NCBI GenBank assembly: GCA_902787575.1
Contig: CADAGX010000002.1
Span: 124,001-188,000 of the forward strand
Direction of reading: 5' to 3'
From: an uncultured Bacteroidales bacterium
GTDB taxonomy: Bacteria; Bacteroidota; Bacteroidia; Bacteroidales; Bacteroidaceae
DNA: 64,000 nucleotides
Part shown: in pieces, positions 1,177 to 55,615 of the stretch
How positions within the stretch are numbered: the first letter of the stretch is position 1
How the letters are laid out: the number at the start of each line of letters is the position of its first letter
Notes under the pieces: model-generated
Databases searched by the model: none
Seen by the model: the letters and a program-made list of their open reading frames with translations, nothing else
What the model was told of the DNA's origin: nothing
Position numbers and translations under genes: made by a program

Positions 1177-1285
1177 ACCACACGTCGTTTTGTTTTTGCC
1201 ACGTGTAGTTTTGCTTCACGCGACGCGTCGCATTCGTCTCTGCGACGTGTAGTTTTGTGCGATGCGACGCGTGGCATAGCCTGCT
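1177..1285. repeat. 22-bp tandem repeat array, locus 1 (about 5 units)
   Basis: Units start at 1177, 1198, 1220, 1242 and 1264, a 21-22 bp period. Each carries a palindromic-type core (ACACGT, ACGTGT or ACGCGT) followed by AGTTTT, CGTTTT, CGCATT or GGCATA. The array fills part of the roughly 630-bp gap between miaB and tRNA-Gln, where no gene is visible. The same family occurs at eight other loci in the window. Confidence 0.8.
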
Positions 1286-1500
1286 TGCCGCTGTCTCAGA
1301 AAAAGTATGACATGTAGGTCAAAAAGAAGATGCGAATCGGGAACCGTAATTCGACCTTTGCTACGCAAAAATCTTAAATATAGTTAAAATTTCGCTAAAG
1401 TGAAAAATAAGGCAGTCGGAGGCTTGCTTTTTTCTAAGAAACTTCCGATTTTTGCCCTGTCGAATGTGATATTCGATTTTACTTTTAGTTTGTTTTGGTA

Positions 1501-1532
1501 GAAAGAAGGAGGTTCCTACACTTCCTTCTTTC
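1501..1532. terminator. hairpin downstream of tRNA-Gln
   Basis: Inverted repeat GAAAGAAGGA...TCCTTCTTTC. On the plus strand it is followed by GTCTTTTTT. It lies downstream of the minus-strand tRNA, but the T-run is on the plus strand, so its direction of action is unclear. A 17-bp direct repeat (TTACTTTTAGTTTGTTT) flanks it at 1479-1495 and 1574-1590. Confidence 0.45.
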
Positions 1533-1603
1533 GTCTTTTTTAAGTACAGCATGTCGCAGGAATACTCTTGCGCTTACTTTTAGTTTGTTTGTTGGCTGAA
1601 AAG

Positions 1604-1674
1604 TTGGGCTATCCGGTTTCGAACCAGAACTAAGACGACCAAAATGTCTTGTGCTACCATTACACCATAGCCCA
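1604..1674 (-). tRNA. tRNA-Gln (anticodon UUG)
   Basis: A cloverleaf can be drawn. The acceptor TGGGCTA pairs with TAGCCCA, giving the U1-A72 pair typical of tRNA-Gln, with discriminator A. The D arm is GTGTAATGGTAGCAC, the anticodon loop TTTTGGT gives anticodon TTG, and the T arm is TCTGG/TTCGAAA/CCGGA. The innermost anticodon-stem pair is an A-C mismatch. CCA is not encoded. The gene has its own promoter at 1705-1735. Confidence 0.93.
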
Positions 1675-1704
1675 ATCCAAAGCAATCTTCTGAGATTGCG
1701 GCTG

Positions 1705-1735
1705 CAAAGGTAAAACAATTCTGCTTACCTTGCAA
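1705..1735 (-). promoter_or_regulatory. promoter of tRNA-Gln
   Basis: Minus-strand TACCTTTG (1705-1712) lies 20 nt from TTG (1733-1735). It sits between the tyrS stop and the tRNA 5' end, so the tRNA need not depend on tyrS read-through. Confidence 0.75.
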
Positions 1736-1750
1736 GGATTTCACGCGTTT

Positions 1751-3049
1751 TTATTTTGCAATCAACAGGAAATATTTCTTTTTTCCTTGTTGCACGAGCA
1801 GGTATTTGTCGTCCAGCAAGTCGGCGGCGCTCACGGTCTGGTCGAACGCCGACAGCTTCTCTTTGTTGAGACTGACGCCGCCGCCCTGAGTGAGCTTCCT
1901 CATTTCTCCCTTGCTGGCGAAGCATTTCGTGTGTTCCGCCATGAGATCTACAGCTTTTACGCCGTCGTTTAGCAGCTGCCGGCTGACTTCGAATTGGGGA
2001 ACACCGCTGAAAACATCGAGAAGTGTCTGCTCGTCCAATTTTGTCAAACTTTCTTTCGTCGCTTTTCCGAAGAGAATGTTGCTGGCTTCGACTGCCAATT
2101 CATAATCTTCGCGGCTGTGAACGAGCACTGTCACCTCTTCCGCCAGGCGTTTCTGCAGCACGCGAAGTCCGGGGTCGCGGCGATGCTCTTCGGTGAGTGC
2201 GTCTATTTCCTCCTTGGGCAGGCTGGTGAAAATCTTGATGTAACGCTCGGCATCTTCGTCGGCCACGTTCAGCCAGAACTGATAGAACACGTAGGGACTC
2301 GTGCGCTCGCGGTCGAGCCAGATGTTTCCCTGCTCTGTTTTTCCAAATTTTTTACCGTCGGATTTGGTGATGAGAGGGCAGGTAAGTGCGAATGCCTCGT
2401 TCTCCGCGCCCAGTTTGCGGCGTATCAACTCGGTTCCCGTCGTGATGTTTCCCCACTGGTCGGAGCCGCCCATCTGCAGTTTGCAGTTCTTCGTCTGGTA
2501 AAGGTGCAGGAAGTCGTAACCCTGCAACAGCTGATAAGTGAACTCGGTAAACGACATTCCATCCTGAAACTCGCCATTCAGCCGACGTTTCACGCTGTCC
2601 TTTGCCATCATATAATTCACGGTAATGCACTTTCCTATCTCGCGTGCGAAATCCAGGAACGTGTAATCTTTCATCCAGTCGTAGTTGTTTACCAACTCGG
2701 CTCGGTTGGGCGCGTCGCTTTCGAAGTCCAGAAAATGCGAAAGCTGCTTCTGGATGCAAGCCACGTTGTGGCGCAGCGTCTCTTCGTTCAGCAGGTTGCG
2801 TTCCTGGCTCTTGCCGCTCGGGTCGCCAATCATGCCCGTTGCGCCGCCAATCAAGGCCAGCGGCTTGTGTCCGCAACGTTGCAGGTGGCGCAGCATCATT
2901 ACGCCGCACAAATGCCCGATGTGAAGGCTGTCGGCCGTCGGGTCGATTCCCACGTAGGCAGTCACGGTTTCGCGCTCGAGCAACTCTTCCGTTCCGGGCA
3001 TCATCTGATGTATCATGCCCCTCCACTTGAGTTCTTCTACAAAATTCAT
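1751..3049 (-). CDS. tyrS: tyrosyl-tRNA synthetase
   Basis: Class I aminoacyl-tRNA synthetase that charges tRNA-Tyr in the cytoplasm. The 432-residue length is usual for bacterial TyrRS. Seen: the HIGH signature at residues 43-46 within SLHIGHLCG, the glycine-rich [13 protein letters not shown] loop near 68-80, the tyrosine-pocket segment [10 protein letters not shown] near 192-201, and a KMSKS-type loop KFGKT at 234-238. The C-terminal 65 residues resemble an S4 RNA-binding domain. The start is an ATG with a consensus promoter about 50 nt upstream. It is followed on the same strand by tRNA-Gln, which has its own promoter. Confidence 0.97.
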
Positions 3050-3095
3050 CTGTATTTTCTTAGTTTGTTATTAAGTTTCATTCACTTTCAGGGCG

Positions 3096-3125
3096 CAAAG
3101 GTACAACAATAAGTTCAATACGCAA
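3096..3125 (-). promoter_or_regulatory. promoter of tyrS
   Basis: Minus-strand TACCTTTG (3096-3103) with TTG (3123-3125) at 19-nt spacing, 47 nt upstream of the tyrS ATG. Confidence 0.7.
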
Positions 3126-3194
3126 AACCTCGGCCGTCAAAATCTTCCCTCCGACGGCAAGATTGGAGTGTGCCGCTGGTGGGAGCCCGATTTT

Positions 3195-3260
3195 CTGCAC
3201 GTGGTTTTGTATTTCCCTCGTGTGGCATTTTATTTTCCGCACGCAGTTTTTTCGGTTTCT
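3195..3260. repeat. 22-bp repeat array, locus 2 (3 degenerate units)
   Basis: Units start at 3195, 3217 and 3239, exactly 22 bp apart. They carry cores GCACGTGGTTTT, CGTGTGGCATTT and GCACGCAGTTTT. They are more diverged than the arrays at 1.2, 26.6 and 38.4 kb. The 3050-3586 gap otherwise holds only the two flanking promoters. Confidence 0.6.
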
Positions 3261-3476: not shown

Positions 3477-3484
3477 TATCTTTG
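3477..3484 (+). promoter_or_regulatory. -7 box upstream of the coiled-coil lipoprotein gene
   Basis: TATCTTTG is a perfect Bacteroidota -7 box. The nearest TTG (3462-3464) is only 12 nt away, so no standard -33 box is seen. The box falls inside the longest possible reading frame (from 3464), which is a reason to place the true start downstream at 3587. Confidence 0.55.
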
Positions 3485-3586: not shown

Positions 3587-6500
3587 ATGAGAAAGAAAAT
3601 TTCTAAGTATCTTATGCTGTTAGCCGCAACGGTCGGCATGGGATGGAGCGTGTCTTCCTGCAAGGACACGAACGAAGACTTGATGAACGACGTGCAAGCG
3701 TTGAAGACTCAGATTTTTGGTGACGGCTCCAGCACGTCAGAAGCTCTGCAGGCACAGGTTGATAACCTGCGTACCTTGCTGACGCTTTACAAGGCACAGC
3801 TCGACGCAATCAACTCTTGCGACTGCGACAAGAGCAAAATCACCACGCTGGAGAACACAATCGCAGGTATGCAAACCACAATTGCAGGCTTGAATACCGA
3901 AATTACGAACCTTCAGAACAACAAGGCCGACAAGGCGCTGGTTACAAACCTGCAGAACACAGTGAACAATCTGCAGACCGCACTCACCACTCTCGAGGGC
4001 AAGCACGACCAGTTGGTGTCTTCCATCGCCAGCACTTACGTGGCAAAGGATGCTTTCAACACGGCAATCAACAACCTGCAGACGCAGATCAATAACATTG
4101 GCACGTGCAGCTGCGATTTGTCCACCATCCTCACTCGCCTTTCTGCAGTTGAGACTGCTGCTGCCACAGCTCAGGCTACCGCAAACGCAGCCAACACCGC
4201 AGCTCAGAACGCTCAGGCTCTGGCCGACTCTGCTCTGACTGTTGCCCAGAATGCTGCCGCAGCTGCCGCAGCTGCTCAGACAACAGCCAACCAGGCACTC
4301 ACCGCTGCTCAGAATGCACAGACCGACGCTACAAACGCACTCACTACCGCCAACGCTGCCAAGAAGACGGCCGAGTCGGCAGACTCGCTGGCTAAAGTGG
4401 TGAAGGGCATTGCAGACCTCAACACAACAAATATTCAGAAAAACGCAGATGCCATCGCAGCCATCAAGCTGCAGATTGCTTCCATGAGCGACTCGCTGAA
4501 AACGGCATACGACAAGGCAGCCGACGCTTACGCAGCCACCGTCATCAATAAGGGCCTTATCGACGCTCTCGACAGCGCTACGAAAGTGCGTCTCGATCGC
4601 CTCGACAGCATTGCTGCTGCACATCACGACAGCATCGACTCCCTGCGCAAAGACATCAAGGCACACGCCGATAGCATCGCTAACCTGCGTCAGGAAATTA
4701 CTAACCTGTATACTTTGGCTGCCACCAACCTGCAGTTGGCTAAGAACTATGCCGACGAACAAATCGCAGTGGTAAAGGCAACACTCGCCAACCACTCCGA
4801 CAGTATCGCCACCAACGCGATGAATATTAAAGACCTGCAGACAAAACTCCAGGCTCTGACCAACCGCGTGCGCAATACTGAACTCAATATCAACAAGCTG
4901 ACGAATCGCATCACCACTGTCGAAGGAGCCGTGGATGCCATCAAGGGTCAGATTACCTCCATCCTCAGCGACATCACAGGCATTAAGAACGACATTACCG
5001 ACCTGCAGAACGCCGACAGCAAGATTAACGAGCGCATCGACAGCGTGGCCAGCCTCCTCACGGATTTGGCAAAGGCCGACACCGCTACTCGCGACTATAT
5101 CCGCGACAGTGTGATGACGAAGATTGTAGAAACGATAGCTCGCGTGGCCGCTATTGAGAATAGTTATGTAACTGACTCCCTCTTCAGCGCAACTGTGGAC
5201 AGCGTCTGCCAGCTTATCAAAGCCAACTCGGTGAAAATTGCAGCCGTCGACAGCGCATATCAAGTTGCCGACTCGATTATGATGGCCGACATCGACTCGC
5301 TGGCTAACGAAATGACAGCTGTGAAGAATCGCGTAGATTCTGTCGTGGATGCTTTGAACACGCTGACAGAATCTGTCGACTCTATCAAGGAAACTTTGGC
5401 AAAAATGGTGACCGGCGTTACAATTCAGGGAACTTACAATCCTATGTTCGGCTCCATCAGCTTGCCCACCGGCCTTAACACCAACGTGCTCGTGGCTCTC
5501 TACGGCGAAGCAGCCAATGATATTTATTTCCCCACAGATCGTACCGGCAATTACGTGCGTCCCGAGGAAGCTCTGACAGCAGGTGATATGGCAATCATAG
5601 GTGCCTCCACTGCTACGCTCTTCTCCGCCGGCGACAAGTTGGTTAGCAATGCCGAGGACAACGCAGGAACGCTCTATGTTACCATCAACCCCAACACGGT
5701 AGATTACACGGGACTTCAGCTGTCTATCGAGAACAGCCAGGCAGAGGCTTCCAAGATTAAGCTTGGCACACTCAAGGAAAGCAACAAGAAGCTTGCCTTC
5801 GGATTTACTCGCGCCAGCGGCAATGGTTTCTACGAGGCTCCCGCTCACGTAGAGGCTGATGATATCGAAAGCGTGCAGAAGGCAAACTTCGATGTGACGC
5901 CCATCAAGGATGCTGCAAAGGAAATCCTCGAAAAGCGCCAGAACGCCAACTTCGACGCTATCGCAGCCGATATGTACGATGTGGTGACAAGTTTCTCGCT
6001 GGATGCAAATGCTGTGAAGTGCGCTTGGACCGAGAATGGCAAGGATCACGCAGTATATTCTAACTACGGCTTGGCAGCAACTGCTGTGAAGCCGCTCTCG
6101 TTCGAGTCTCTGAACTTCAATGTTGCGACTGTGCCGGGTTACGAGCAGGCTATGAGCTTCATCGACAGATTTGCAAGCACTGTCAAGGGTAAGATCAACG
6201 ACAACCAGATTTTCAATAGCCTTGCAGATTTGCAGCAGAGCGGTGCAAACATCAACATCCGTAAGGCTGAATTGATCAATGTGGACAGCCTTGCGAATAC
6301 TCTCACGTTGCAATATACGGCTGTCATTGATACCACCATCACTGTGAAGGGTAAGACTTTCTCCATCAAGAATGTCTTGGCTAACAAACTGACGTTCGAA
6401 GCTCCCGACCACACGGTGTACACAATCGACATAGCTGACATTGACGACATTGTTATTGCCGACCAGAACATTCGTATATTGGTTTCCAGAACTTATGACA

Positions 6501-7123
6501 TGACGACGATGTTCAAGTCCATTATGAATAATATCAACGGCCAGGTGGACGATTTGAACACCATGATAATGACAATCGTTGACTTCTTGGAAGATGTAAA
6601 CCAAGTGATAGACGACATGAACGACGTGAAGGCTCAAGTTATCGACGGCGTCAACTCGTTGGCAAGTCGCTTGCGCAATGTGCTCAACAAGGGCAACAAG
6701 ATTATTGCAGACGCTGTGAACGGAATTAACGGACGTCTCCAGCCCGTTATGGTACTCAGCACCAGCGAAGGCACGCAAGTCCTCAGCATGGCAAAGAGTG
6801 CTCCTTCAATTGTTAGCGGTGGCAGCCTGAAGCTGATTCCCACTACTTGGACAATGGAACTCATCGTTCCTGTATTCAAGAAACATATTGCTGTTACCAA
6901 CGTCTTCAAGGGCGATGCCAGCGCTCAGGGTGGCGACGCTACGTGCACTTCTCTGCTTACTGCAGCAAACGGTGCTGAAAACATGAACACCGTTGTGGAT
7001 GCCAACGTTCGCGAACTGAATCTGACAGGTCTCACTGCTGGTTATACCTACGAGTTTGCATATTCTGCCCTCGACTATCATGGCAAGATTGCAACGAAGA
7101 AGTATTATGTGACCATTCAGTAA
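3587..7123 (+). CDS. large surface lipoprotein with long coiled-coil stalk
   Basis: Function unknown. The start at 3587 (MRKKISKYLMLLAATVGMGW) is chosen because it gives a lipoprotein signal peptide ending VSSC, with the lipid-bearing Cys about 22 residues in. The product is 1178 residues. About residues 25-610 are heptad-rich coiled coil, with Ala-rich stretches (repeated AAQNAQ and TANAA, near 210-280) and many DS-I-x-x-L repeats. A globular C-terminal half (about 615-1178) begins near VTIQGTYNPMFGSISLP. The N-terminus resembles other Bacteroidales lipoproteins with a coiled coil directly after the lipid anchor. An OmpA-like gene follows 40 nt downstream, so a stalk on the outer membrane co-produced with a peptidoglycan-linked partner is plausible. 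The two CDC motifs in the stalk (near residue 77 and again after about 90 residues) could form disulfides. Confidence 0.8.
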   Translation: MRKKISKYLMLLAATVGMGWSVSSCKDTNEDLMNDVQALKTQIFGDGSSTSEALQAQVDNLRTLLTLYKAQLDAINSCDCDKSKITTLENTIAGMQTTIAGLNTEITNLQNNKADKALVTNLQNTVNNLQTALTTLEGKHDQLVSSIASTYVAKDAFNTAINNLQTQINNIGTCSCDLSTILTRLSAVETAAATAQATANAANTAAQNAQALADSALTVAQNAAAAAAAAQTTANQALTAAQNAQTDATNALTTANAAKKTAESADSLAKVVKGIADLNTTNIQKNADAIAAIKLQIASMSDSLKTAYDKAADAYAATVINKGLIDALDSATKVRLDRLDSIAAAHHDSIDSLRKDIKAHADSIANLRQEITNLYTLAATNLQLAKNYADEQIAVVKATLANHSDSIATNAMNIKDLQTKLQALTNRVRNTELNINKLTNRITTVEGAVDAIKGQITSILSDITGIKNDITDLQNADSKINERIDSVASLLTDLAKADTATRDYIRDSVMTKIVETIARVAAIENSYVTDSLFSATVDSVCQLIKANSVKIAAVDSAYQVADSIMMADIDSLANEMTAVKNRVDSVVDALNTLTESVDSIKETLAKMVTGVTIQGTYNPMFGSISLPTGLNTNVLVALYGEAANDIYFPTDRTGNYVRPEEALTAGDMAIIGASTATLFSAGDKLVSNAEDNAGTLYVTINPNTVDYTGLQLSIENSQAEASKIKLGTLKESNKKLAFGFTRASGNGFYEAPAHVEADDIESVQKANFDVTPIKDAAKEILEKRQNANFDAIAADMYDVVTSFSLDANAVKCAWTENGKDHAVYSNYGLAATAVKPLSFESLNFNVATVPGYEQAMSFIDRFASTVKGKINDNQIFNSLADLQQSGANINIRKAELINVDSLANTLTLQYTAVIDTTITVKGKTFSIKNVLANKLTFEAPDHTVYTIDIADIDDIVIADQNIRILVSRTYDMTTMFKSIMNNINGQVDDLNTMIMTIVDFLEDVNQVIDDMNDVKAQVIDGVNSLASRLRNVLNKGNKIIADAVNGINGRLQPVMVLSTSEGTQVLSMAKSAPSIVSGGSLKLIPTTWTMELIVPVFKKHIAVTNVFKGDASAQGGDATCTSLLTAANGAENMNTVVDANVRELNLTGLTAGYTYEFAYSALDYHGKIATKKYYVTIQ

Positions 7124-15397: not shown

Positions 15398-17383
15398 TCA
15401 GAAGCGGTAGCGTAGCTGAAACGACAAATCGTTGCGCCATGGGCTGAGTATGGCCTGCGGTCCGCTGCCTTGCTGACTGCGGTCGAAGTAACGCGATGCG
15501 CCGTATCGCATTTCCAGCATCCAGTGGTCGGTCGGGCTCCATCGTGTTGTGACGGCAGCGTGTGTGCCGTGTCCGTAGTAGGAGGCCGAAGTGATGCTTT
15601 CGTAGAGCGAGGGTTCGTAAAAGTAAAGGCGGCTCAGATAGTTCGGCGTGTGGAACCAAGCCAGCGTACCGACGAATCGCCAGTGGGACGAAGGCTCCAG
15701 CCTGAAACTCTCCTGTACGCCTACGCCTGTGTGCTGCAGTACGCGGTGCAGGAACGCGTCGCTGCGCAGCGACCAACGGCCGTCGGCTGCAGTGTGTGCC
15801 CAACGCAGTTTTATGCGATGGTGCGGTTCCATCTGGTCGGCTACTTCTTTTCGCTTCAGCTGATAGCGGGCGGAGAAGTTGTTGCGCCTGTCTGTCTGCC
15901 ATGCGACCTGTGTCATGAATTCCTGCCCCGTGTCGCTGTGCGTCATCCGGTAGCGAGGCCACGCGTGGTGGAAGAAGTCGGCATAGGTCTGAAGCGTGAT
16001 TCCGGCCCATGGCTCGGCCCACAGATGCAGCAGCACGCCCGACTCGTTCTGTACGACACTTGCATCGCTCAGACACGACGCGTGGAATGAATAAAAACTA
16101 CGTGTGAAAAATCGCTGTACGACGTGTAGTTTTAGTCGTTGCGACACGTCGTAATTTGCGCGGTGCAGCGTGGCCCATCCACGCGTCGTGCTGTATGCCG
16201 TCTCGCCGGCCAGTGTGAGTCGGTAAATCGTGTAGCCGTAGTGAGCGCTCAGCGCGCCAAACTGTCGGCCGCGCGGGTAGATTTGTCGGTATGTGGCGCT
16301 CCCCGGTTCGAGTCGACGGCTGAAGGTCTGCCAGTAGCCCGTAGCACCCAACTGCCACGCGCCTTGTCGCCATGTGGCGTCGGCGCCTGCCACGGTGGCA
16401 GACACGCTGCGCTTGGAGTTTATCTCGGAGGCCGTGCGATGATAACCCGTGCGTAGCAGCGTTTGCACCTGTCCGTCGGCCAGAGTGGCGTCCAGACGGC
16501 GATGTGAGACGAAGAGGCTGGTAGAAATCTGGCCGAAGTCCATCGTAGCCGCAGCGCCGCGCAGGAATCGCGTCTCGTCGGTGCTTCGCATGGCTCTGAT
16601 GCCCTGTTGCGATTTACGCGCCGGCGAATTCTTGGCAAACCGCACATCGCCACCCATCACCAGTCCTTCGCCGAAGCCGATGTGATAGTCGCCCACCACG
16701 GCGCGCTGCAGGTGCCCAATGTCGTGTAGCAGCACGTATCCGCCATACGAGTCGAAGTATCGCCGCTCGCCGGCGTCCTTCTCCGCACGCAGGCCAGCCG
16801 CGAATTTCTGCCCTTTGGCTTCGTATTTCACACGTTGGTAGAGCGGATTCCCGGCGTAAGCCTTCGGTTTCTGAAAGCCCTGTCTGTAATAGAGCGGCAC
16901 GTCGATGCGCGAAGAAAGGCTGTGCCGCACCGTTTTGGCGAAGCTGCGCTCTGTCTTCTCGGGTGCTGCCGCAGGTCCGGCGAAGACGAACAGCGAAAGC
17001 CAGCGTCGCGTCTGCTCGTCGATGAGTGGCACCAGTCGCAGCTCACCCAGCGACTGCATGGCGCCGTGCAGATAGATGTAAGCGTGAATCTGTTCTATCT
17101 GCTCCTCCGTGAGGAATGGCAGGCGCAGCAGGTCGGAGACGGAGGCCGTGTTGATGTTTAGCGGGCTGTCGTGCAAGACTTTCAGTTCTTCGACGAACGA
17201 GAGCCAATCTTCGTCCTCCACCAGCTCTTCGTCGGCCGTCAGTTCTTGTACAAAGTCATCCCACGAAAACCGTGGCGCCTGTGCCATCGTATGCGCCGAC
17301 GCCATGAAGAAAAGGATGCACAGAAGCCCTTGCAGCGTGCGGCGAAACGTTTCTGCAAGGGCTTGCTGTTTCATCTTTATCAT
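15398..17383 (-). CDS. helix-hairpin-helix/outer-membrane barrel protein
   Basis: 661 residues from the ATG at 17383; a second ATG at 17374 is equally possible. A signal peptide covers about residues 4-35 (TLQGLLCILFFMASAHTMAQA). An acidic segment is followed by a ComEA-like helix-hairpin-helix at about 74-106 (SPLNINTASVSDLLRLPFLT). The remaining 540 residues look like a large beta-barrel ending LSFQLRYRF, a C-terminal aromatic typical of outer-membrane proteins. Homologous Bacteroidales proteins are usually labelled only by the HhH domain; function unknown, DNA or surface binding is a guess. It lies 20 nt after the FAD oxidoreductase gene, so probably one operon. Odd: codons for residues about 408-435 are made of the dispersed 22-bp repeat. 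Confidence 0.75.
   Translation of the reverse strand: MIKMKQQALAETFRRTLQGLLCILFFMASAHTMAQAPRFSWDDFVQELTADEELVEDEDWLSFVEELKVLHDSPLNINTASVSDLLRLPFLTEEQIEQIHAYIYLHGAMQSLGELRLVPLIDEQTRRWLSLFVFAGPAAAPEKTERSFAKTVRHSLSSRIDVPLYYRQGFQKPKAYAGNPLYQRVKYEAKGQKFAAGLRAEKDAGERRYFDSYGGYVLLHDIGHLQRAVVGDYHIGFGEGLVMGGDVRFAKNSPARKSQQGIRAMRSTDETRFLRGAAATMDFGQISTSLFVSHRRLDATLADGQVQTLLRTGYHRTASEINSKRSVSATVAGADATWRQGAWQLGATGYWQTFSRRLEPGSATYRQIYPRGRQFGALSAHYGYTIYRLTLAGETAYSTTRGWATLHRANYDVSQRLKLHVVQRFFTRSFYSFHASCLSDASVVQNESGVLLHLWAEPWAGITLQTYADFFHHAWPRYRMTHSDTGQEFMTQVAWQTDRRNNFSARYQLKRKEVADQMEPHHRIKLRWAHTAADGRWSLRSDAFLHRVLQHTGVGVQESFRLEPSSHWRFVGTLAWFHTPNYLSRLYFYEPSLYESITSASYYGHGTHAAVTTRWSPTDHWMLEMRYGASRYFDRSQQGSGPQAILSPWRNDLSFQLRYRF
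16079..16162. repeat. 22-bp repeat units inside a coding sequence, locus 3
   Basis: 16079-16100 matches the minus-orientation unit seen at 38.4 and 51.6 kb at about 17 of 22 positions. 16119-16140 and 16141-16162 match plus-orientation units (ACGTGTAGTTTT and ACACGTCGTAAT). 16101-16118 is a weak remnant. The segment stays open in the host gene's frame. Confidence 0.6.
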
Positions 17384-17403
17384 AGGGTGGGAGAGCGGTT
17401 CTG

Positions 17404-18747
17404 TCAGATGGATAGCACAACACGCTGCTCGCGCAGTTTCTGTTGCAACGTGCTGACATCTACTTCGTCTGACGCGCAGCGTGCTGCCACGGCAAGTGCC
17501 GCAGCGGTGCCTGCCGCCTGTCCCGTGACAAAACATGTGCCTATCTCGCGGGCGTCCCACGCCAGTCCTTCCTCAAATCCGAAGCAACGGCCGGCCACCC
17601 ACAGGTTGCGGCAGCCGCGCGGCAGCAGGGAACGATATGGAATCTGCCAGCAAGGACGTTTTTTGGTGGGCACCATGCTGCCTTTGTATGGGATGGGATC
17701 CGAGGCGCCACTCATGCCAATCGTGTCGTCGAACGTGGTCCGTATCATTGACTCCTCCAGCGTAATCACATGCTGCGCGTCCAAAGCACGCGTCACACGA
17801 ACGCCAAGTTGCGATGCGGTGTCGAGTAGAAAAATTTTCTCGTAGCCGGGCTGCCGTTTCAGACGCTCGGTGTCTTCCCAAATCTCCTTGCGGAATTTCT
17901 GTTGCAGGCGTGTCAGGTTGAAAACGTCGAGTCCATCTTGCTGTTCCTCGCCGCGCATGTGACGCATCGACACGCCGTCTATGGGCGTTCGGCTGTTCAG
18001 ATGTATTTCCTTGAAGCCCGGCGCGTTCCTGTCTACGCGGTCAGTGTTTCCAAGGCGTGCCATATGGCCAATGTGATACTTAATCTCGCGGAACGGCACA
18101 CCGCTCCACTCCATTACGTCGCCGTCGCCGCTGCAATCCACCACCGCCTGACAACGGATGGCAAGGCGGCCGCTCTTGGTTTCGACGATCAGCGCTTCAA
18201 TTTTCTCGTCCGAGGCCATGATTACCTCGGCTGCCGTGCTGAAGAATATGGTGCGGACACCTGCCTCGCGACACATCTCGTCGAGCACATATTTGCAGGC
18301 TTCGGGGTCTACGAGCGGATTCTTCTGATTTCTGGCCATGCCCATTTCGAAGAGGCGGCCGCAGACATCATCGCTGATGCCTTTCACAACTTTGGTCCAC
18401 ACTTCGCCATTTCCAGCGCCGTGGGTGGAGAGCACGGGTAGCACCAGTCCGCCTGTCCAAAGTCCGCCCAGATGGTTGTAACGCTCCACGAGGATGACGC
18501 TACTGCCCTGTCGGGCGGCGCTCACGGCAGCCGCGAAACCTGCCGGTCCGCCGCCAACCACCACCACGTCGGCCGATGCCACCACGGGTAGTTGGCGTGC
18601 CGGCTCGCTGACGTAGCCTTCCACCGGCAGCCGCGTCTTCACTTTTTTCTTTTTCCGAGTGGCAGCGTCCAACGTTTGCAGGCTGGGCGAGACGGCCAGC
18701 AGGCCGGCGCCAGCAGTGGTGCGCTTCAGGAAATTTCTTCTGTCCAT
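17404..18747 (-). CDS. Tat-exported FAD-dependent oxidoreductase
   Basis: 447 residues from the ATG at 18747, which places a twin-arginine signal at the very N-terminus (MDRRNFLKRTTAGAGLL); earlier alternatives only extend the signal peptide. The dinucleotide-binding loop VVVVGGGPAGFAAA is at about 61-74, followed by VERYNHLGGLWTGG, the FAD-dependent oxidoreductase type also found in hydroxylated-metabolite and glycan-related clusters (PF12831-like). A second FAD-contact region AVVDCSGDGDV lies in the middle and NLWVAGRCFGFEEGL near the C-terminus. Substrate unknown; periplasmic location inferred from the Tat signal. The HhH protein gene follows by 20 nt. Confidence 0.85.
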   Translation of the reverse strand: MDRRNFLKRTTAGAGLLAVSPSLQTLDAATRKKKKVKTRLPVEGYVSEPARQLPVVASADVVVVGGGPAGFAAAVSAARQGSSVILVERYNHLGGLWTGGLVLPVLSTHGAGNGEVWTKVVKGISDDVCGRLFEMGMARNQKNPLVDPEACKYVLDEMCREAGVRTIFFSTAAEVIMASDEKIEALIVETKSGRLAIRCQAVVDCSGDGDVMEWSGVPFREIKYHIGHMARLGNTDRVDRNAPGFKEIHLNSRTPIDGVSMRHMRGEEQQDGLDVFNLTRLQQKFRKEIWEDTERLKRQPGYEKIFLLDTASQLGVRVTRALDAQHVITLEESMIRTTFDDTIGMSGASDPIPYKGSMVPTKKRPCWQIPYRSLLPRGCRNLWVAGRCFGFEEGLAWDAREIGTCFVTGQAAGTAAALAVAARCASDEVDVSTLQQKLREQRVVLSI

Positions 18748-26632: not shown

Positions 26633-26720
26633 GCGACGTGTAGTTTCTCGTTTTGCGACGTGTAGTTTTCGTTCACGCGACACGTAGTTTTTGTTCACGC
26701 GACACGTCGCATTTTGCATT
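26633..26720. repeat. 22-bp tandem repeat array, locus 4 (4 perfect-period units)
   Basis: Units start at 26633, 26655, 26677 and 26699, all exactly 22 bp. They read GCGACGTGTAGTTT..., GCGACGTGTAGTTTTCG..., GCGACACGTAGTTTTTG... and GCGACACGTCGCATTTT.... The array sits between the divergent glpD and cysteine synthase genes and ends 52 nt before the latter's promoter. Confidence 0.9.
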
Positions 26721-35850: not shown

Positions 35851-35893
35851 ACCACGTGTAGTTTTGACCGAAACGACACGTGCTTTTCCGAAA
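35851..35893. repeat. 22-bp repeat array, locus 5 (2 units)
   Basis: ACCACGTGTAGTTTT... starts at 35851 and ACGACACGTGCTTTT... at 35873, 22 bp apart. They lie between the leuS promoter and the pnp terminator. Confidence 0.65.
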
Positions 35894-38347: not shown

Positions 38348-38403
38348 TGCTGCCAAAATGGGTTTGGAATGAACCAAACCACATGTAGCAGAAATAAGGG
38401 CTG

Positions 38404-38512
38404 CACGTGGCGCGAAAAAAACCACACGTGGCATGAACGAAAACTATGTGTGGCGTGAGCAAAAACTACGTGTGGCGTGAGCGAAAACTACACGTGGCAA
38501 AAATAAAGCGAC
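38404..38512. repeat. 22-bp tandem repeat array, locus 6 (5 units, opposite orientation)
   Basis: Units start at 38404, 38425, 38447, 38469 and 38491. They read CACGTGGCGCG..., CACGTGGCATGAACGAAAACTA, TGTGTGGCGTGAGC..., CGTGTGGCGTGAGCGAAAAC... and CACGTGGCAAAA.... This is the reverse complement of the family at 26.6 kb. It ends 52 nt before the next gene's start. Confidence 0.9.
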
Positions 38513-42241: not shown

Positions 42242-42260
42242 GCCAAATCTATTTTTCTTG

Positions 42261-42303
42261 CGTGTGGTTTTTAGAAAACTACGTGTGGTAATCTTAGAAA
42301 CTG
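42261..42303. repeat. 22-bp repeat array, locus 7 (2 units)
   Basis: CGTGTGGTTTTTAGAAAACTA (21 bp, written in two parts: CGTGTGGTTTT + TAGAAAACTA) and CGTGTGGTAATC + TTAGAAACTG at 42282-42303. It occupies most of the gap between parE and coaD. Confidence 0.65.
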
Positions 42304-48891: not shown

Positions 48892-50001
48892 TCAGCGTGC
48901 GCCTTTGCGCCGGTTGCAGTTGCGGCAGAGCATCTGACAGTTGTCGGCTGTCGTGATGCCGCCCTCGGCCCACGGAGTGATGTGGTCTGCCTCCATTTCC
49001 TCGAGCTGGAAGTGCTGGCCGCAGTGAGGGCAGATGCCTTGCTGACGTTCGTAGGCCTCGCGCTTTTGCTTCTTGTCGAAGGTGCGGAACGAGAGGTCGC
49101 GCAGGTCGCCCGAGAGGACATAGCTGTAGATGCCCGACTTCTTCATTATCTCGTCGTCCTCCATGAGTGCTCTGATTTGTTCCTCCAGCGCCTGCGTGTC
49201 ATAGATTTGCTGGTGATAGCGGTCGTAGAGCAAGCCCCAGTCCAGCCCCTTCATTTCGCGGCGATAGTTGGGGAATGTGGTGCGCACCCAGGTGACGATT
49301 GCCGAGAAGTAGGCCCACAGCTGGCTTGCGTTTGCGTCGTCCTTGTGCGCAGACATGTATTCGTCCACCTTCTCTATCCCGTCTCGCCGCGCTGCCCAGT
49401 GCAGCACGGTGGCCAGATAAGCCTGTTCGATGGCCGTGCCGTTGAGCAGGTCGCCGCCAATCTTGTAGGCGGGGCAGCCCGTCTTGGAGAAATAGCGGCG
49501 TGCGTCGCAGACAAACGGCCCCACATGAATGGCGTTCAGCAGTTCCTGGTCCAGCAACCGCTCGCCTGCAATGTTTATCACGCGGAACCAGTCGAGTTTC
49601 TCCTTGTCGGTTCCCGTGCAGAGATAGACCATAAGTTCGTAGTCGAGGAATGCTTCTTTCTCTTCCTGCGTCAGCGACCTGAAGAACAGCACTCCGCGCT
49701 CTGGGTCCACGATGTTGAATACGTGTTCGTGAAACTCGCAGATGGAGAGTGTGCGCTGCTGGCCGTCTATCATCTCGTATGTGCCGTCGCCTACTACGCT
49801 CCAATACATTGTGTTCAGCGGGAAACCCTTCAGTATGGTGTTCACTACGGCTTGCTTCTGCCTGAGGTCGTATCGAAACTCGCGCTGGTAGGGTGGGCGT
49901 ATGTCGAGCAGCCCGCCGTATCCGTGCACGCCTGTGTCGGCGTCGCAGGTGTAACCTTCAACGAGGTCGCGCACCTTGATTTTTCTTTCCTGTATTTCCA
50001 T
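48892..50001 (-). CDS. DUF262 and HNH endonuclease domain protein
   Basis: 369 residues. N-terminal DUF262/GmrSD-N-like domain (about 1-200) with RPPYQREFRYD (35-45) and the ParB-like nucleotide motif IDGQQRT (78-84). C-terminal HNH nuclease (323-369): CPHC, then EADHITPWAEGG, DN, and CRNCN, with two zinc-binding CxxC pairs and the HNH histidine H340. DUF262-HNH proteins are associated with modification-dependent or phage-defence nucleases. 16 nt downstream of an EcoRI-type adenine methyltransferase on the same strand, so a methylase-nuclease pair is likely. All recognisable catalytic residues are present. Confidence 0.88.
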   Translation of the reverse strand: MEIQERKIKVRDLVEGYTCDADTGVHGYGGLLDIRPPYQREFRYDLRQKQAVVNTILKGFPLNTMYWSVVGDGTYEMIDGQQRTLSICEFHEHVFNIVDPERGVLFFRSLTQEEKEAFLDYELMVYLCTGTDKEKLDWFRVINIAGERLLDQELLNAIHVGPFVCDARRYFSKTGCPAYKIGGDLLNGTAIEQAYLATVLHWAARRDGIEKVDEYMSAHKDDANASQLWAYFSAIVTWVRTTFPNYRREMKGLDWGLLYDRYHQQIYDTQALEEQIRALMEDDEIMKKSGIYSYVLSGDLRDLSFRTFDKKQKREAYERQQGICPHCGQHFQLEEMEADHITPWAEGGITTADNCQMLCRNCNRRKGAR

Positions 50002-50017
50002 GATTAGAGCGTTGAGT

Positions 50018-50992
50018 TTATTTCTTTCTGCGGATAAGAATTCGAGCGTATATCTTTTTCTTATTTACATATGGGTAACCAAAATTGAATTCGCTCACTT
50101 TTGTTGTCACCATTTGCCCTAAGATTTCAAATTGCTCAGGGATATATTTGTCGAGAAAGGTGATGGGGACGCCCATCACGCCGTCGTAGTCCTGCGGAAT
50201 GTCACTTGTCTTCGACACTTCTATGGCATCGTAATTATCATAGTGCGGGTATTCCTCGGGCGTGTAGTGCTTGGTAAGTATTATTGGCTCGTGTCTTTCT
50301 TTGTAGTCGAGGTTTGTGAACCAACGGACTCCCTTCACACGAATAAACTTTCTGCCGGTTTCATCTATGCCGCAGCCTGCAGCATTCAAGTCGTAATAGT
50401 CCGGGACATAAAATTTGCGGTCGCCACTGTGAATGCTTTGCCCCATCCACATCTTGTTTTGCATGAAAAGCGGGAAGATTTCCTTATACGTGATGGCATT
50501 CATGTTTCCGATGATGAGAAACTGCTTGTGGTATTTCATCAGCTGCGCTACGTATTCGCGGAAGAGCGAGAAGGGTGGGTTGGTCACCACGATGTCTGCC
50601 TGCTCGAGCAGGCGGATGCACTCCTGCGAGCGGAAGTCGCCGTCTCCGTGCAGCGGGTGGATGCCTATTTCTGCGGGGTCGGGAATGTTGTTGCCGTTCC
50701 TGTCGCCGTCATAGACCAGATAAACGGCTTGCTCGCAGTCGTTTTGGCTGAAGAGGTCCATGTCTTGGTTCTTGTAGCACGTTGTGATGAGGCGGCGAAG
50801 GCCCAGAAACTCGAAGTTGTAGGCAAAATAAGTGAAGAAGTTGGAGATGCGCGGGTCGTCGCAGTTGCAAAGCACGGTCTTGCCGCGGAAATGCTGGCGA
50901 TAGTGGCACAACTCGTTGTTTATGTCCTCCAGCTGCGTGTAGAACTCGTCCTTCTTTGCCTCCTTCGCTCGGTTGAGATTGCTGTTTGGCAT
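50018..50992 (-). CDS. EcoRI-family adenine-specific DNA methyltransferase
   Basis: 324 residues from the ATG at 50992 (MPNSNLNRAKEAKKDEFYTQ). It has the catalytic motif NPPF at 138-141 (VVTNPPFSLF) and the family-specific opening KDEFYTQLEDINNEL. Other conserved pieces are VLCNCDDPRISNFF and VYDGDRNGNNIPDPAEIG. The family transfers a methyl group from S-adenosylmethionine to adenine N6; recognition sequence unknown. First gene of the pair with the DUF262-HNH nuclease. No specificity or REase gene of another type is nearby. A -7-like box (TACCTTTG, minus strand, 51276-51283) is almost 290 nt upstream and lacks a partner TTG. Confidence 0.9.
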   Translation of the reverse strand: MPNSNLNRAKEAKKDEFYTQLEDINNELCHYRQHFRGKTVLCNCDDPRISNFFTYFAYNFEFLGLRRLITTCYKNQDMDLFSQNDCEQAVYLVYDGDRNGNNIPDPAEIGIHPLHGDGDFRSQECIRLLEQADIVVTNPPFSLFREYVAQLMKYHKQFLIIGNMNAITYKEIFPLFMQNKMWMGQSIHSGDRKFYVPDYYDLNAAGCGIDETGRKFIRVKGVRWFTNLDYKERHEPIILTKHYTPEEYPHYDNYDAIEVSKTSDIPQDYDGVMGVPITFLDKYIPEQFEILGQMVTTKVSEFNFGYPYVNKKKIYARILIRRKK

Positions 50993-51405
50993 GTTGTTTT
51001 TAGTTTTGGCGCTGCTTATCTTCGGAGGGACGGGCTGTTGCAGAGCAAACAAAGAAGCATGGACGATTCTCATCCATACTTCAAGGCTCTCGCATCGCCC
51101 ACAAATCCAGACAAGTCACGCCCATGCCAAAAGACACAGGCGCCTGCAACTTATTCTTCGGATTTGTTATTTCTGAATTTGCGAGATTCTGAAGTATTCC
51201 GAATAACAGCATGCGCATGTTATTTTACCGCTAAGAATGCTGCCGCAGCACTCGCCAGTGCGTACGACAACACGACAAAGGTAGGCAAAAATGTTGAGAC
51301 TGAGAAGAGAGAGGGCTAAGAAATTTATTGCCGCACGTGGAAACTTGTCTCAATTGACCTATGTCAAGAAATGCGGCCGTGCGTTAAATTCTTTATTTCC
51401 TTTCC

Positions 51406-51560: not shown

Positions 51561-51616
51561 TTTGCGGGTCCGAAGTGTGGCTTCTCGGGGGCTTGCTGTG
51601 GCGTGCTGAAATGCGA

Positions 51617-51700
51617 CGTGTGGCGTGGACGAATGCGACGCGTCGCATGAACGAAAACTACGTGTGGCGTGAAGCGAAACTACACGTGGCTTTTTCCGAT
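51617..51700. repeat. 22-bp tandem repeat array, locus 8 (about 4 units)
   Basis: Units start at 51617, 51639, 51661 and 51683: CGTGTGGCGTGG..., CGCGTCGCATGAACGAAAAC..., CGTGTGGCGTGAAGCG... and CACGTGGCTTTT.... Same orientation as locus 6. It ends at the stop of the SecB-like gene. Confidence 0.85.
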
Positions 51701-51710: not shown

Positions 51711-52187
51711 CTATGCTTTTCCGCCGGCTGAGGGCATGGGAATGGTGTGTTGGGGATTGCGTTTCAGGTGCAAGTCGGTCTTGACGAACTGTGCGGCAGC
51801 CATCATGGGAAGTATGACACGCGGCAGGCCATTCTCCTCGCTGCGGATGGCAAGTATGCCGCGCGTGGCGCCAATCGTCACGTCTGCCAAATGCTGTACG
51901 AGACCCACCGGCAGCACCCACTCATCGCCCTGTAGCCGATACATTGCGCTCCAGCTGTCGCGTGTAAACTCGAAGGACGACTGCACGCTGAGCAGCAACT
52001 GCGTGATGGAGTTTTGCTTGTACTCGTAGTGTGCTACGCAGTGCAGGATGCGCTTGTCTATGTCGGCGTTGAACTGCAGTTGGTTGGTGATTTGCAGCTC
52101 GCCGTCGGGCCATTGGTTGGTGAGGCTCACGAATTGCAGCTGCTTGACGTCCAAGAGGCGGAACTGAATCTGTATCTGTTTCTCCAT
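51711..52187 (-). CDS. conserved small protein, possibly SecB-like
   Basis: 158 residues, no signal peptide or membrane segment. Sequence pattern: an N-terminal strand LLDVKQLQFVSLTN, a middle segment VAHYEYKQNSITQLLLSVQSSFEF, and a C-terminal helix/strand VGLVQHLADVTIGATRGILAIRSE ending LPRVILPMM. The order of strands, the mid-protein SVQSSFEF and the Pro-linked C-terminal helix recall the SecB chaperone fold (compare the xxxxFPYAR and NRGTFP regions), but similarity is weak. It lies next to secDF and is transcribed separately. Alternative: an unrelated Bacteroidales hypothetical protein. Confidence 0.5.
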   Translation of the reverse strand: MEKQIQIQFRLLDVKQLQFVSLTNQWPDGELQITNQLQFNADIDKRILHCVAHYEYKQNSITQLLLSVQSSFEFTRDSWSAMYRLQGDEWVLPVGLVQHLADVTIGATRGILAIRSEENGLPRVILPMMAAAQFVKTDLHLKRNPQHTIPMPSAGGKA

Positions 52188-52329: not shown

Positions 52330-55300
52330 TTACTTCTTGTCTTCGGGTTCGCCCTTGATTCTCTTCTTCATCAGAATGAAGGCCGTGGGTGCAGCCACGA
52401 AGATGGAGGAGAACGTACCGAATACGACACCCAGTATCATTGCGAAGGCGAAGCTGCGGATGCTGGCGCCGCCCAGGCAGAAGATCACTGCCAACACAAT
52501 GAATGTGGAAACCGACGTGTTGATGGTACGGTTCAACGTGCTGTTGAGCGATGCGTTGAACACCTCTTGCTTGTCGCGCTTGGGATAGAGTCCGAGGAAC
52601 TCGCGGATGCGGTCGAACACCACCACCTTGTCATTGATAGAATAACCAATGGCAGTCAGCACGGCACCGATGAACGTCTGGTCAATCTCGAGGCTGAAGG
52701 GAAGAATTCCCCACCAGATGGCGTACATTCCAAGTATGAGGACGACGTCTATCACGAGGGCGGTGATGGCGCCCACGGAGAATGCCACGTTGCGGAAGCG
52801 GAGCAGGATGTAAAGGAAGATGGCAATGATGGCGAGAATGACGCTAATGATGGCGCCGTGTGTGATATCTTCTGCCACCGAGGGTCCCACCTTCTGGCTG
52901 CTGATGATAGAGCCGCCGGCGCGCTCGTCGCGGTTGATAAAGTTGTCGAGCGTCAGGTCGTCTGCCAGCAGGCCGGCTCCCTTCAGCGTGTCGAACAGCT
53001 TGCTCTCAATCTCGCTATCCACTTCGATGCCCTCTTCTTCGATGCGATAGTTGGTGCTGATGCGGATGGTCTTGCCCTCGGTACCCAGTGCGATGGCGCT
53101 GGTATTGCTCTCGGGGAAGGCCTCAGCCAGCAGGCCACGCACCTCTTCGGGCTGTACGTTCTTCTCGAAGAGAACCACGAAGTTGCGACCGCCCGTAAAG
53201 TCGATGCTCTTGCTGAAACCGCGGAACGCCATAAATGCGATGCTTATCAAGGCCAGAATGCCGAAGACGATGAAGCTCTTCTTCCACGCGCTCATAAATT
53301 TGTATGCGGGGTTCTGGAACGAAATCTTGTTGCCGATAGGCGTCTGGAACGTGAGGCCGAGCCACTTGTCGCGGTTCATCATTTCGGTGTAAACGACACG
53401 TGTCAGGAACACTGCGGTGAAGAAGCTGACGCAGATACCGATGAGCAACGTGGTGGCGAAGCCGCGGATTGGTCCGGTTCCGAAGTAATAAAGGATGATG
53501 GCGGTGATGACACTCGTCAGGTTGGAGTCGAAGATGGCGCTAAATGCATTGCTGTATCCAGCGTTCAGCGCTTCGCGTACCTTCTTGCCAGCCTTCAATT
53601 CCTCCTTCGTGCGCTCGTAAATCAGCACGTTGGCGTCCACTGCCATACCCAGCGACAGCACCATACCGGCGATACCGCTCATGGTAAGTGCGGCCTGGAA
53701 GCTCGTAAGCACTCCTACGGTGAAGAAGAGGTTCAGAATCAGCGCGCAGTTGGCCACCATACCGGGTATGGTACCATACATTACTATCATGTAAACCATC
53801 AGGATGAGGAAGGCGATAACGCAGCTCCACACACCCTGGCGGATGGATTCTGCACCCAGCGACGGACCAACTATCTCCTCGCTAACTATCTTGGCGGGAG
53901 CAGGCATCTTACCCGACTTCAGCACGTTTGCCAAGTCGCGCGTGGTCTCAACCGTGAAGTTACCCGTGATTTCCGACCGTCCGCCCGTGATTTCGCTCTG
54001 CACCGTGGGTGCGCTGTACACGTTGTCATCGAGTACGATGGCAATGCTGCGCTTCAGGTTAGCTTTCGTGAGGGCAGCCCAGCGGCGTGCGCCGTCCACG
54101 TTCATCGTCATGCTTACGCAGGGACGTCCGTGCTGGTCGTACGATTCGCTGGCATCCGTCACAACATCGCCTTCCAGCGGTGCGTGTCCGTTGCGCTCTG
54201 TCACTTTGATAGCGTAGAGCTCAAACACGTTGGCTGCAGCACCTTCGCCCATTCCTGTGGCGCCCCACTTCAGACGCAGGTCGGAGGGCAGGAGCTCTTT
54301 TGCTTCGGGCGAGGCCAAAAGTTCGTTGATAGTGTTCATGTCGCGCATGGCAGCATAACCTACGATGCAGCCCTCGCCGCCCTGGAACACCTGCAGACGG
54401 CTCAGCAGCGGGTGCTGGCGGTGTGCTTTCTCGATGTCGGCAGCAGAGAGTGTGGTGTTGCCGCCCTCCTCTGTCTTGCCGGCGATGGCTTCTGCCAGGT
54501 CGCCCTTAGCCTTTGTGGTGTCAGCCTCAACCTTCTCGGCTTCCTCAGCTACGGGCTCGGCTGCAGCGCTGTCAGCGCCCTCTGTCGTTTCCTCTATGGC
54601 GCCCAGTGCGGCAGCCAGTTTGCTGTCGAGCGAAACGAGCAGCGGAGTAACTTCCGACGAGTTGTACGTCTCCCAGAACTCCAGATTGGCGCTACCCTGC
54701 AGAAGTTTGCGGACGCGCTCGGGCTCCTTCACGCCAGGCATTTCCACCATGATGCGGCCTTCCTGTCCTTCCAGCGCCTGGATGTTGGGCTGAACGACGC
54801 CGAAGCGGTCGATACGTGTGCGAAGCACGTTGTAAGAGTTGGAAATGGCGCTCTTAACTTCGGCGCGCAGCACTTTCTCAACCTCGGCATCGGTGCTCTT
54901 GGTCGTCACCTTGTCGCGCAGCTGCTGCGTGGCGAAAATCTCGGCAAGTCCCTTCTCGGGCGCCAGTGCCTTGTAATCTTTCACGAATAGACTGATGAAG
55001 TCGTTCTGGCTGCTTGCAGCCTCTCGCGTGGCCTGTTCTACGGCCTTGCGGAAGTTTTCGTCGGTCTCTTCTTTGTGATCGGCCAGCGCTTTCACCACAT
55101 CGGGCACGCTAACTTCCAGAATCACGTTCATGCCGCCCTTCAGGTCGAGGCCCAGGCCGATGCCCATCTCGCGGCATTCCTTAAGTGTCCACACGTTGCA
55201 GTACACTTTGTTGTTGAGCAACGAGTCAAGATAGCGGTCGGCTGCTTCCTGGCCGTCGGTCAGCGCCATCTTCTCGGCCTTGCCTTCGTAATGGTTCGTC

Positions 55301-55380
55301 ACGAAGGAAAAACTCAGATAGAAGATGCAAATCAGCGTCAGCAGAGCTGCGAAAACCTTAACAAATCCTTTGTTTTGCAT
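52330..55380 (-). CDS. secDF: protein translocase SecDF fusion
   Basis: 1016 residues from the ATG at 55380 (MQNKGFVKVFAALLTLICIF), which begins with the first membrane helix. SecD part: GLGLDLKGGMNVILEVS near 70, a large periplasmic domain including ...EGRIMVEMPGVKEPERV, and the helices with GMAVDANVLIYERTKEE. SecF part (about 665-1016): SIDFTGGRNF and the matching DKVVVFDRIREFL. It uses the proton-motive force to complete protein export with SecYEG. A low-complexity acidic/alanine insertion (about 265-315: EETTEGADSAAAEP) interrupts the SecD periplasmic domain. Own promoter box at 55449. Confidence 0.96.
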   Translation of the reverse strand: MQNKGFVKVFAALLTLICIFYLSFSFVTNHYEGKAEKMALTDGQEAADRYLDSLLNNKVYCNVWTLKECREMGIGLGLDLKGGMNVILEVSVPDVVKALADHKEETDENFRKAVEQATREAASSQNDFISLFVKDYKALAPEKGLAEIFATQQLRDKVTTKSTDAEVEKVLRAEVKSAISNSYNVLRTRIDRFGVVQPNIQALEGQEGRIMVEMPGVKEPERVRKLLQGSANLEFWETYNSSEVTPLLVSLDSKLAAALGAIEETTEGADSAAAEPVAEEAEKVEADTTKAKGDLAEAIAGKTEEGGNTTLSAADIEKAHRQHPLLSRLQVFQGGEGCIVGYAAMRDMNTINELLASPEAKELLPSDLRLKWGATGMGEGAAANVFELYAIKVTERNGHAPLEGDVVTDASESYDQHGRPCVSMTMNVDGARRWAALTKANLKRSIAIVLDDNVYSAPTVQSEITGGRSEITGNFTVETTRDLANVLKSGKMPAPAKIVSEEIVGPSLGAESIRQGVWSCVIAFLILMVYMIVMYGTIPGMVANCALILNLFFTVGVLTSFQAALTMSGIAGMVLSLGMAVDANVLIYERTKEELKAGKKVREALNAGYSNAFSAIFDSNLTSVITAIILYYFGTGPIRGFATTLLIGICVSFFTAVFLTRVVYTEMMNRDKWLGLTFQTPIGNKISFQNPAYKFMSAWKKSFIVFGILALISIAFMAFRGFSKSIDFTGGRNFVVLFEKNVQPEEVRGLLAEAFPESNTSAIALGTEGKTIRISTNYRIEEEGIEVDSEIESKLFDTLKGAGLLADDLTLDNFINRDERAGGSIISSQKVGPSVAEDITHGAIISVILAIIAIFLYILLRFRNVAFSVGAITALVIDVVLILGMYAIWWGILPFSLEIDQTFIGAVLTAIGYSINDKVVVFDRIREFLGLYPKRDKQEVFNASLNSTLNRTINTSVSTFIVLAVIFCLGGASIRSFAFAMILGVVFGTFSSIFVAAPTAFILMKKRIKGEPEDKK

Positions 55381-55448
55381 TTTTTGTAATTGTTTTGTTT
55401 TTTTATTATTTGTAGTTGTTTTTGTTCGTTTCGATGCGCTACAGCGTG

Positions 55449-55456
55449 CAAAGATA
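55449..55456 (-). promoter_or_regulatory. -7 box of secDF
   Basis: Minus-strand TATCTTTG, 69 nt upstream of the secDF ATG. Confidence 0.5.
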
Positions 55457-55557
55457 CGCATTTTTCTGCATATCCGCCGCATCTGTGCCAAAGAAAAATG
55501 CAAAAAAGCGAAAACGACGGGGTGCGATGCCTGCCAATGCCTTGCATTTTGTGGGTT

Positions 55558-55615
55558 ACGACACGTGGTTTTCTGCTTGCCGCAGGCGGGAAATAAATTT
55601 TTGCACGCAGTTTTT
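55558..55615. repeat. 22-bp repeat, locus 9 (degenerate)
   Basis: ACGACACGTGGTTTT... starts at 55558, and GCACGCAGTTTTT starts two periods (45 nt) later. Weakest locus of the family. Confidence 0.4.

Follow-up and report, generated by a model that had tools for sequence, protein, structure and literature searches.

What are the short repeats with a strict 22-bp period that recur between the genes of an uncultured Bacteroidales bacterium? The question arises from a 64,000-nucleotide stretch of its genome (the window; Bacteroidaceae, GenBank assembly GCA_902787575.1, contig CADAGX010000002.1, positions 124,001 to 188,000), in which a first-pass annotation had described eight intergenic loci with tandem 22-bp units and a palindromic core of the type ACRYGT. 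The period is real: the window holds 97 ACRYGT cores, against 72.6 (s.d. 7.3) in Markov shuffles, and 14 pairs of cores lie exactly 22 bp apart, where 50 shuffles gave a mean of 0.06 and a maximum of 1; nine pairs lie at 44 bp and five at 66 bp. A genome-wide count had been named beforehand as the result that could expose the repeats as chance similarity, and the enrichment extends across the whole genome (G000; 2.65 Mb in 34 contigs), with 384 pairs at 22 bp and one for a reversed control pattern. Judging from such patterns in the DNA, we tentatively read the arrays as platforms for a putative dimeric, chromosome-organising or insulating protein of drifting specificity, an explanation that is plausible if somewhat short of probable.

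Five of the eight described loci are clear arrays (1180, 26636, 35854, 38381 and 51616), those at 3195 and 42261 are weak, and at 55558 no core pair with at most one mismatch per core was found at 21-23 or 44 bp. When one mismatch is tolerated in each core, 41 pairs in the window are spaced 22 bp (16 expected), but 31 are spaced 24 bp and 23 are spaced 21 bp, so that weak loci by themselves prove little. A clear array inside an open reading frame (ORF) had been missed. The arrays and weak pairs of the window, given without strand, are:

1180-1272: array of five ACRYGT cores with spacings of 21, 22, 22 and 22 bp, near a tRNA gene (1604-1674) and the TyrRS gene; a sixth core 43 bp further on was left out of the chain
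16078-16149: four exact cores at 22 bp in coding sequence, within the ORF 15398-17560 (- strand)
26636-26707: four cores at 22 bp, in the divergent gap between an FAD oxidoreductase gene and a PALP-family gene
35854-35881: two cores, 22 bp apart, flanked by the PNPase and LeuRS genes
38381-38495: array of four exact cores, spaced 43, 44 and 22 bp, with degenerate cores in between, in the divergent gap between the PNPase gene and a thioredoxin-like gene
51616-51687: four cores at 22 bp, adjoining the stop codon of the ORF 51711-52187 (- strand)
3197-3223: weak pair with a spacing of 21 bp, each core carrying one mismatch (one-mismatch core scan)
42260-42286: weak pair with a spacing of 21 bp, only one of the cores carrying a mismatch (one-mismatch core scan)

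About 664 kb of the 2645 kb of G000 was read. Within 464 kb of it we found 33 chains of at least two cores, most commonly spanning four units (13/33), a few irregularly spaced ones being probably due to chance; another chain rule gave 42 chains in the 664 kb, from which we estimate by extrapolation 150-190 arrays in the genome. The unit is roughly ACRYGT-SGCRTGA-n3-AATGCS or -AAACT (94 units), a consensus that leans to SGCRTGA because the units were oriented by that same motif. The arms are mixed, as first described: 104 spacers comprise 19 of type A-B (AGTTTT, arm A, with SGCRTGA), 27 B-C, 20 C-C, 6 A-C, 2 B-B and no A-A, and 30 with an unclassed arm. Both orientations had been reported to occur; direction is mostly consistent within one array, though not always. 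By eye, the outer ends often read AAAATGC or GCATTTT. Within the GGTTAACC family of two relatives (G012 and G024; 110 units), CCTTT stands opposite CCATT 32 times and opposite an identical half 15 times (Fisher p = 0.017), and GC never opposite GC (Fisher p = 0.011), in a test that covers this family and in which units of one array are not independent; the G000 arm types were tallied. Half-sites that differ more often than they agree disfavour hairpins, and the complementary changes that keep the palindrome in repetitive extragenic palindromes and bacterial interspersed mosaic elements (REP/BIME) were not seen in the GGTTAACC family. The helical phasing of dyad sites that marks protein-binding arrays was seen, at exactly 22 bp. 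The unit would thus read as a dyad core with a different 11-bp half-site on either side, rather than as a hairpin.

Related genomes have the same period. Our multi-genome counts cover 33 blocks of 22 genomes (2.27 Mb), partly picked at known matches, with gene calls from our own simple caller and an array threshold that varied by script between 24 and 28 of 44 matches. At lag 22 they gave 199 noncoding arrays, which occur in 21 of the 22 genomes, compared with 17 at lag 21, four at lag 23 and 1-3 at lags 18-20 and 24-26. These counts omit stretches of G004, G005, G006, G007, G010, G023, G028 and G031, among which a lag-22 segment was found in G023 alone and is A/T-rich; they likewise omit the PNPase loci of named records and several contigs (G084 C1-C5, G090 C1/C2/C4, G136 C72 and G032 C82/C87/C12), some of which hold arrays. 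Masked intergenic lag spectra peaked at 22 and 44 bp, with 20 and 18 arrays in G000, 29 and 21 in relatives, 7 and 6 in L057-L079, and 24 and 13 in the distant Prevotella-type loci L080-L136, where 16 arrays at lag 21 and 11 at lag 42 were additionally found (other lags 0-4). Several arrays of L085, from an uncultured Prevotella of red deer, have a 21-bp period rather than 22, and the period may therefore be lineage-specific. No lag-22 array occurred in small samples from E. coli (50 kb) and from other families within the order (71.6 kb). ACRYGT pairs at 22 bp numbered 51-328 in ten of 36 genus relatives (two of the ten with raised controls, 51 and 48), 12-32 in five, 0-8 in 21 and 0-6 in 24 other families, and 12 of 19 other genomes, each read over one stretch of 3-20 kb (two from G003), had a lag-22 segment, one of them A/T-rich.

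The sequence of the unit is exchanged among these relatives. Arrays of G126 and G027 are of the type CCGCRYGCGG with GGATTGCCAT, those of G012 are of the GGTTAACC with ATTATGGGCAGAAA and the CTGCAG types, AACACGTTAAGTTGGCC occurs in G122 and a similar type in G008, ACCTATACCTCTTTGCCC in G076 and further types elsewhere, and several families coexist in one genome. The CCGCRYGCGG pattern was found in 0 of 121 in a family sample that lacked G126, G027 and G160, where it had been seen; an exact-pattern scan of a contig collection, which perhaps did not include the window's own genome, gave no match, and no description of such arrays was found among the matches listed in the open-access literature.

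Array positions often correspond between related species although the sequence there has been exchanged. Between G012 and G126 (~79% protein identity), 22 syntenic gaps comprised 5 occupied in both genomes, 2 + 2 in one and 13 in neither (p = 0.014), or 5, 3, 2 and 12 at a lower threshold (p = 0.032), and in four of the five co-occupied gaps an array of GGTTAACC type in one genome corresponds to one of CCGCRYGCGG type in the other; the fifth gap is unclassified and weak. All non-close pairs together gave 25 syntenic gaps occupied in both, 37 + 20 in one and 238 in neither (odds ratio 8); stratified by pair and gap length, 25 were co-occupied against 16.3 expected (p = 2e-4), with pairs that are not independent since the gap after the thioredoxin-like gene counts in many of them. 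That gap is occupied in G008, G024, G036, G122 and G126, each time by a different sequence. The close genomes G012 and G024 have four arrays in common, none single and five gaps empty, and the sister genomes G032 and G090 (97%) have two in common. For three G000 arrays, an array of another family lies in G012 on the same side of one orthologous gene.

The arrays are also evenly spaced along the chromosome, and this holds across families. The coefficient of variation of their spacing was 0.53 in G012 (37/88 gaps; p = 0.0025), 0.45 in G126 (28/70; p = 0.0005) and 0.56 in G027 (32/82; p = 0.009), compared with ~0.8 for random gaps, at mean distances of 6.2-7.4 kb in these three relatives and 16-23 kb in G000, of whose blocks, with seven arrays each, two were even (p = 0.04 and 0.02). 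Rotating the families independently gave less even maps (p = 0.0012, 0.0005 and 0.016 for G012, G126 and G027, where 12/37, 10/28 and 6/32 arrays carry the family label 'other'). Neighbouring gaps less than 2.5 kb apart were both occupied in 2 of 43, 1 of 37 and 1 of 48 cases, against 7.5, 5.9 and 7.2 expected; the two arrays were of different families in 0, 1 and 1 cases (4.8, 3.4 and 5.5 expected; p = 0.005, 0.10 and 0.011) and of one family in 2, 0 and 0 (2.7, 2.3 and 1.8 expected; not significant). The different families therefore appear to be placed on a single common map.

Arrays inside genes bear on how the repeats arise. The array at 16078 sits in an ORF of 720 residues whose G035 orthologue, the only one aligned residue by residue, aligns through it with 52% identity and 10 gap columns in 628, none of them inside the array; other orthologues are similar in length (638 residues vs 642 codons in G008, 628 vs 630 in G065). 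The absence of gaps inside the array and the similar lengths point to an origin by substitution. A second coding array, of four cores, lies in the linker region of what we take to be polA, where orthologue lengths vary, so that insertion is neither shown nor excluded there, and the third instance, a three-core chain in a G000_C4 ORF, may be a chance occurrence.

Start codons are seldom close to an array. Only 7 of 199 array-start distances are below 30 bp, and the medians are 189 bp (co-directional) and 164 bp (divergent). In 141 of 185 cases the motif TANNTTTG, the Bacteroidetes -7 consensus, separates the array from the start codon, at a density of 3.62/kb as compared with 0.81/kb past the array; the array between PNPase and the thioredoxin-like gene in the window is an exception as read, with a TACCTTTG motif on its far side. 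The distance from TANNTTTG to the start is similar in array-free gaps, and the result therefore says only that arrays lie outside promoters.

Together, the period, the dyad units, the matching places, the even spacing across families and the insertion-free coding array argue for selected protein-binding platforms with a spacing-dependent role, such as the marking of domain boundaries. A platform would consist of about four 22-bp units, each made of two 11-bp half-sites that face each other across a dyad core (ACRYGT in this genome), and successive units, two turns apart, would present themselves on the same face of the helix. A putative dimeric, sequence-specific protein, or a set of related ones, may bind the units jointly and act as a chromosome-organising or transcription-insulating factor from sites that lie between transcription units at roughly even distances. 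If the specificity of the binder drifted and its sites followed, related species would keep the places with another sequence.

Several observations weigh against this interpretation. No array-binding protein was found. The co-occupied gaps recur from one species pair to another, an initial test per gene side, with looser criteria, yielded p values of 0.06 and 0.11, and G000 shares no array with G012 in 21 strictly syntenic gaps or with G126 in 15 (nor with G160 in seven). One of the three G000 blocks has no even spacing (p = 0.51), and only one of five named families is even when tested alone. Purifying selection could explain the position away from starts, and any element lying so far upstream would be expected to have a promoter motif between itself and the start. 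At two other places, G032 and G090 hold different array elements, one of them MITE-like (miniature inverted-repeat transposable element). A second repeat of ~130 bp with several GTGTAGGTT motifs lies at six flanks of four G000 arrays, in copies 66-81% identical, and at two of these arrays, 74262 and 1877, inverted copies frame the array, an arrangement like that of a composite mobile element:

G000_C1 50099 and 74262, G000_C2a 1877 and 66117: arrays flanked by the GTGTAGGTT-type repeat
G000_C1 49890-50088, 74051-74251 and 74343-74543, G000_C2a 1666-1866, 1936-2136 and 66176-66376: copies of the GTGTAGGTT-type repeat

This repeat moved our judgement slightly from binding platforms towards a selfish origin, in which MITE-, minisatellite- or REP-like repeats of several families, with transposases encoded elsewhere, would insert preferentially near stop codons and survive where harmless, their even spacing resulting from target immunity or selection. 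We regard this as a serious though doubtful possibility. In addition to the GTGTAGGTT-type flanks and the differing elements of G032 and G090, it would account for several families per genome and for element Y of G032 (TTTTCCAACTGGGAAATAAAAA family), ~250 bp long with imperfect terminal inverted repeats (TIRs) around a 22-bp array (by eye) and copies in that genome; the BrickBuilt element of P. gingivalis is likewise a 23-nt minisatellite in a MITE (PMC4596501). A comparison of 254 flanks of 127 arrays gave 120 matching pairs, 47 of them within G126. A selfish origin is, however, difficult to reconcile with even spacing that holds across families, positions that recur with exchanged families and an array in coding DNA without insertion. 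No clean empty site was seen at the compared loci.

The first-pass annotation held that arrays are never near transposases, and none was found among 19 window ORFs, most of them beside arrays (Pfam, E 0.001), the rest of the window being unscanned. The search it had suggested for a transposase of the RAYT type (REP-associated tyrosine transposase) tied to the arrays returned one Y1/RAYT-like gene in G000 (L024 9866-10471, - strand, 201 aa; PF01797, 37 bits), ~3.2 kb from the nearest array, and no RAYT gene flanked by repeats. There was no Y1 transposase match in the array-rich G005, G008, G009, G012 and G020, which are drafts 62-89% complete in which other transposases were not searched, and a Y1_Tnp search of 37 genomes showed no link with array-rich genomes, by which we set aside a RAYT/REP system. 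The ends of large transposons were also rejected as an explanation; the arrays near two indels (G084/G139 and G090/G032) lie in apparent gene-content differences, whose genes were not family-searched. Around the array elements of G032 and G090, L224-L229 contain intergenic mosaics of a GGACGCTGCACGCAGACGTCC palindrome, ACTCATC-type microsatellites and a GTGAGATTCGCGGGATT repeat. A composite element on contig 14 of G090 (L228 351-539 and L229 18590-18852) joins a 22-bp array to another whose period is 23.

Bidirectional transcription terminators or structured 3' untranslated elements are improbable, though 90 of 219 array-stop distances are below 30 bp and arrays are enriched in convergent gaps (53 of 118 gaps of at least 90 bp, as compared with 99 of 428 co-directional ones). 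Divergent gaps, where no gene ends, hold arrays in 45 of 179 cases; the half-sites are anti-concordant, and of 14 arrays within ~50 bp of a stop codon, seven point with the gene and seven against it (hand count). T runs often close the outer arms (by eye), and arrays of G012, G126 and G027 fold better than controls, with z scores per strand of -2.3 to -3.2 against -0.8 to -1.6. In G000 the scores range by block and strand from -0.7 to -4.7 (controls -1.0 to -2.2), and the block with the window hardly differs (-2.6 and -2.3 by strand against -2.2). Rfam at the gathering threshold identified two tRNAs in the window and nothing else. The first-pass annotation had proposed either a dimeric DNA-binding protein or a structured RNA: the protein fits the two-turn period, the dyad cores and the even spacing, whereas the RNA is disfavoured by the small fold gain in the window block, the GGTTAACC half-site differences and the 7:7 direction. 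A regulon, in which the arrays would be operators for one ordinary transcription factor or a small number of them, would explain intergenic dyad sites with helical phasing but is very improbable for hundreds of sites, mostly more than 100 bp from a start codon, in convergent gaps too and beside unrelated genes.

The genes adjoining the window arrays do, as had been noted, include housekeeping ones (TyrRS, LeuRS, PNPase, a GyrB-family subunit and SecDF), but such neighbours say little. An M.EcoRI-like adenine methyltransferase gene (50018-51073, - strand; PF13651, E 2.5e-142) lies near the 51616 array. The window also encodes a long protein of 1146 aa (3683-7123, + strand), with only weak, sub-cut-off matches to coiled-coil-type Pfam families.

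A bolder version of the binding-platform interpretation, which we consider rather unlikely, would give Prevotella-like bacteria a chromosome-wide system of evenly spaced boundary sites in which nothing but the geometry is conserved: arrays of about four dyad units, repeated every two turns of the helix, that keep their places between transcription units. Between species, the sequence of every site in a class would change in concert and in step with a fast-evolving binder, and the families of one genome would share a single position map. The GTGTAGGTT-type repeat slightly lowers the odds of this version as well. If arrays are platforms of this kind, they would represent a site system conserved in geometry and place and not in sequence, which similarity searches cannot see. 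Such a system would offer a way into the question of how a major gut lineage partitions its chromosomes, and would show, for bacteria, a binding protein and its hundreds of sites evolving together across a whole genome. PNPase matches place the lineage with rumen and gut Bacteroidaceae/Prevotellaceae bins, and the nearest PNPase record not labelled uncultured or bin, Bacteroidales bacterium KHT7, has a noncoding 22-bp array (L070:8378-8486), which may make the system testable.

Dispersed protein-binding sites on chromosomes are familiar from parS, matS and the gyrase-binding BIME-2. Unlike those sets, the arrays do not conserve their sequence between species; the period and, partly, the place are conserved. 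REP/BIME elements with RAYT are high-copy, extragenic, palindrome-like and species-specific in sequence, sometimes in regularly spaced clusters, with suggested roles in chromosome organisation and termination (PMC2817692, PMC3733652). The arrays resemble them in copy number, extragenic place and palindrome-like, species-specific sequence and differ in their exact, mostly direct 22-bp period, a tendency of the half-sites not to pair, the exchange of families at corresponding positions and even genomic spacing, and the sole RAYT-like gene found is not beside an array. BrickBuilt of Porphyromonas gingivalis is a minisatellite inside a MITE, with the consensus AGAYCATARTATCCTCTCRTRTG, a leader and a tail with TIRs, and 19 copies (PMC4596501). 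Both belong to the Bacteroidales and are intergenic tandem repeats of about two helical turns (23 nt in BrickBuilt) at many places per genome; the arrays have no leader, tail or TIR common to their copies, are more numerous, at ~150-190 by extrapolation, and are built around dyad cores.

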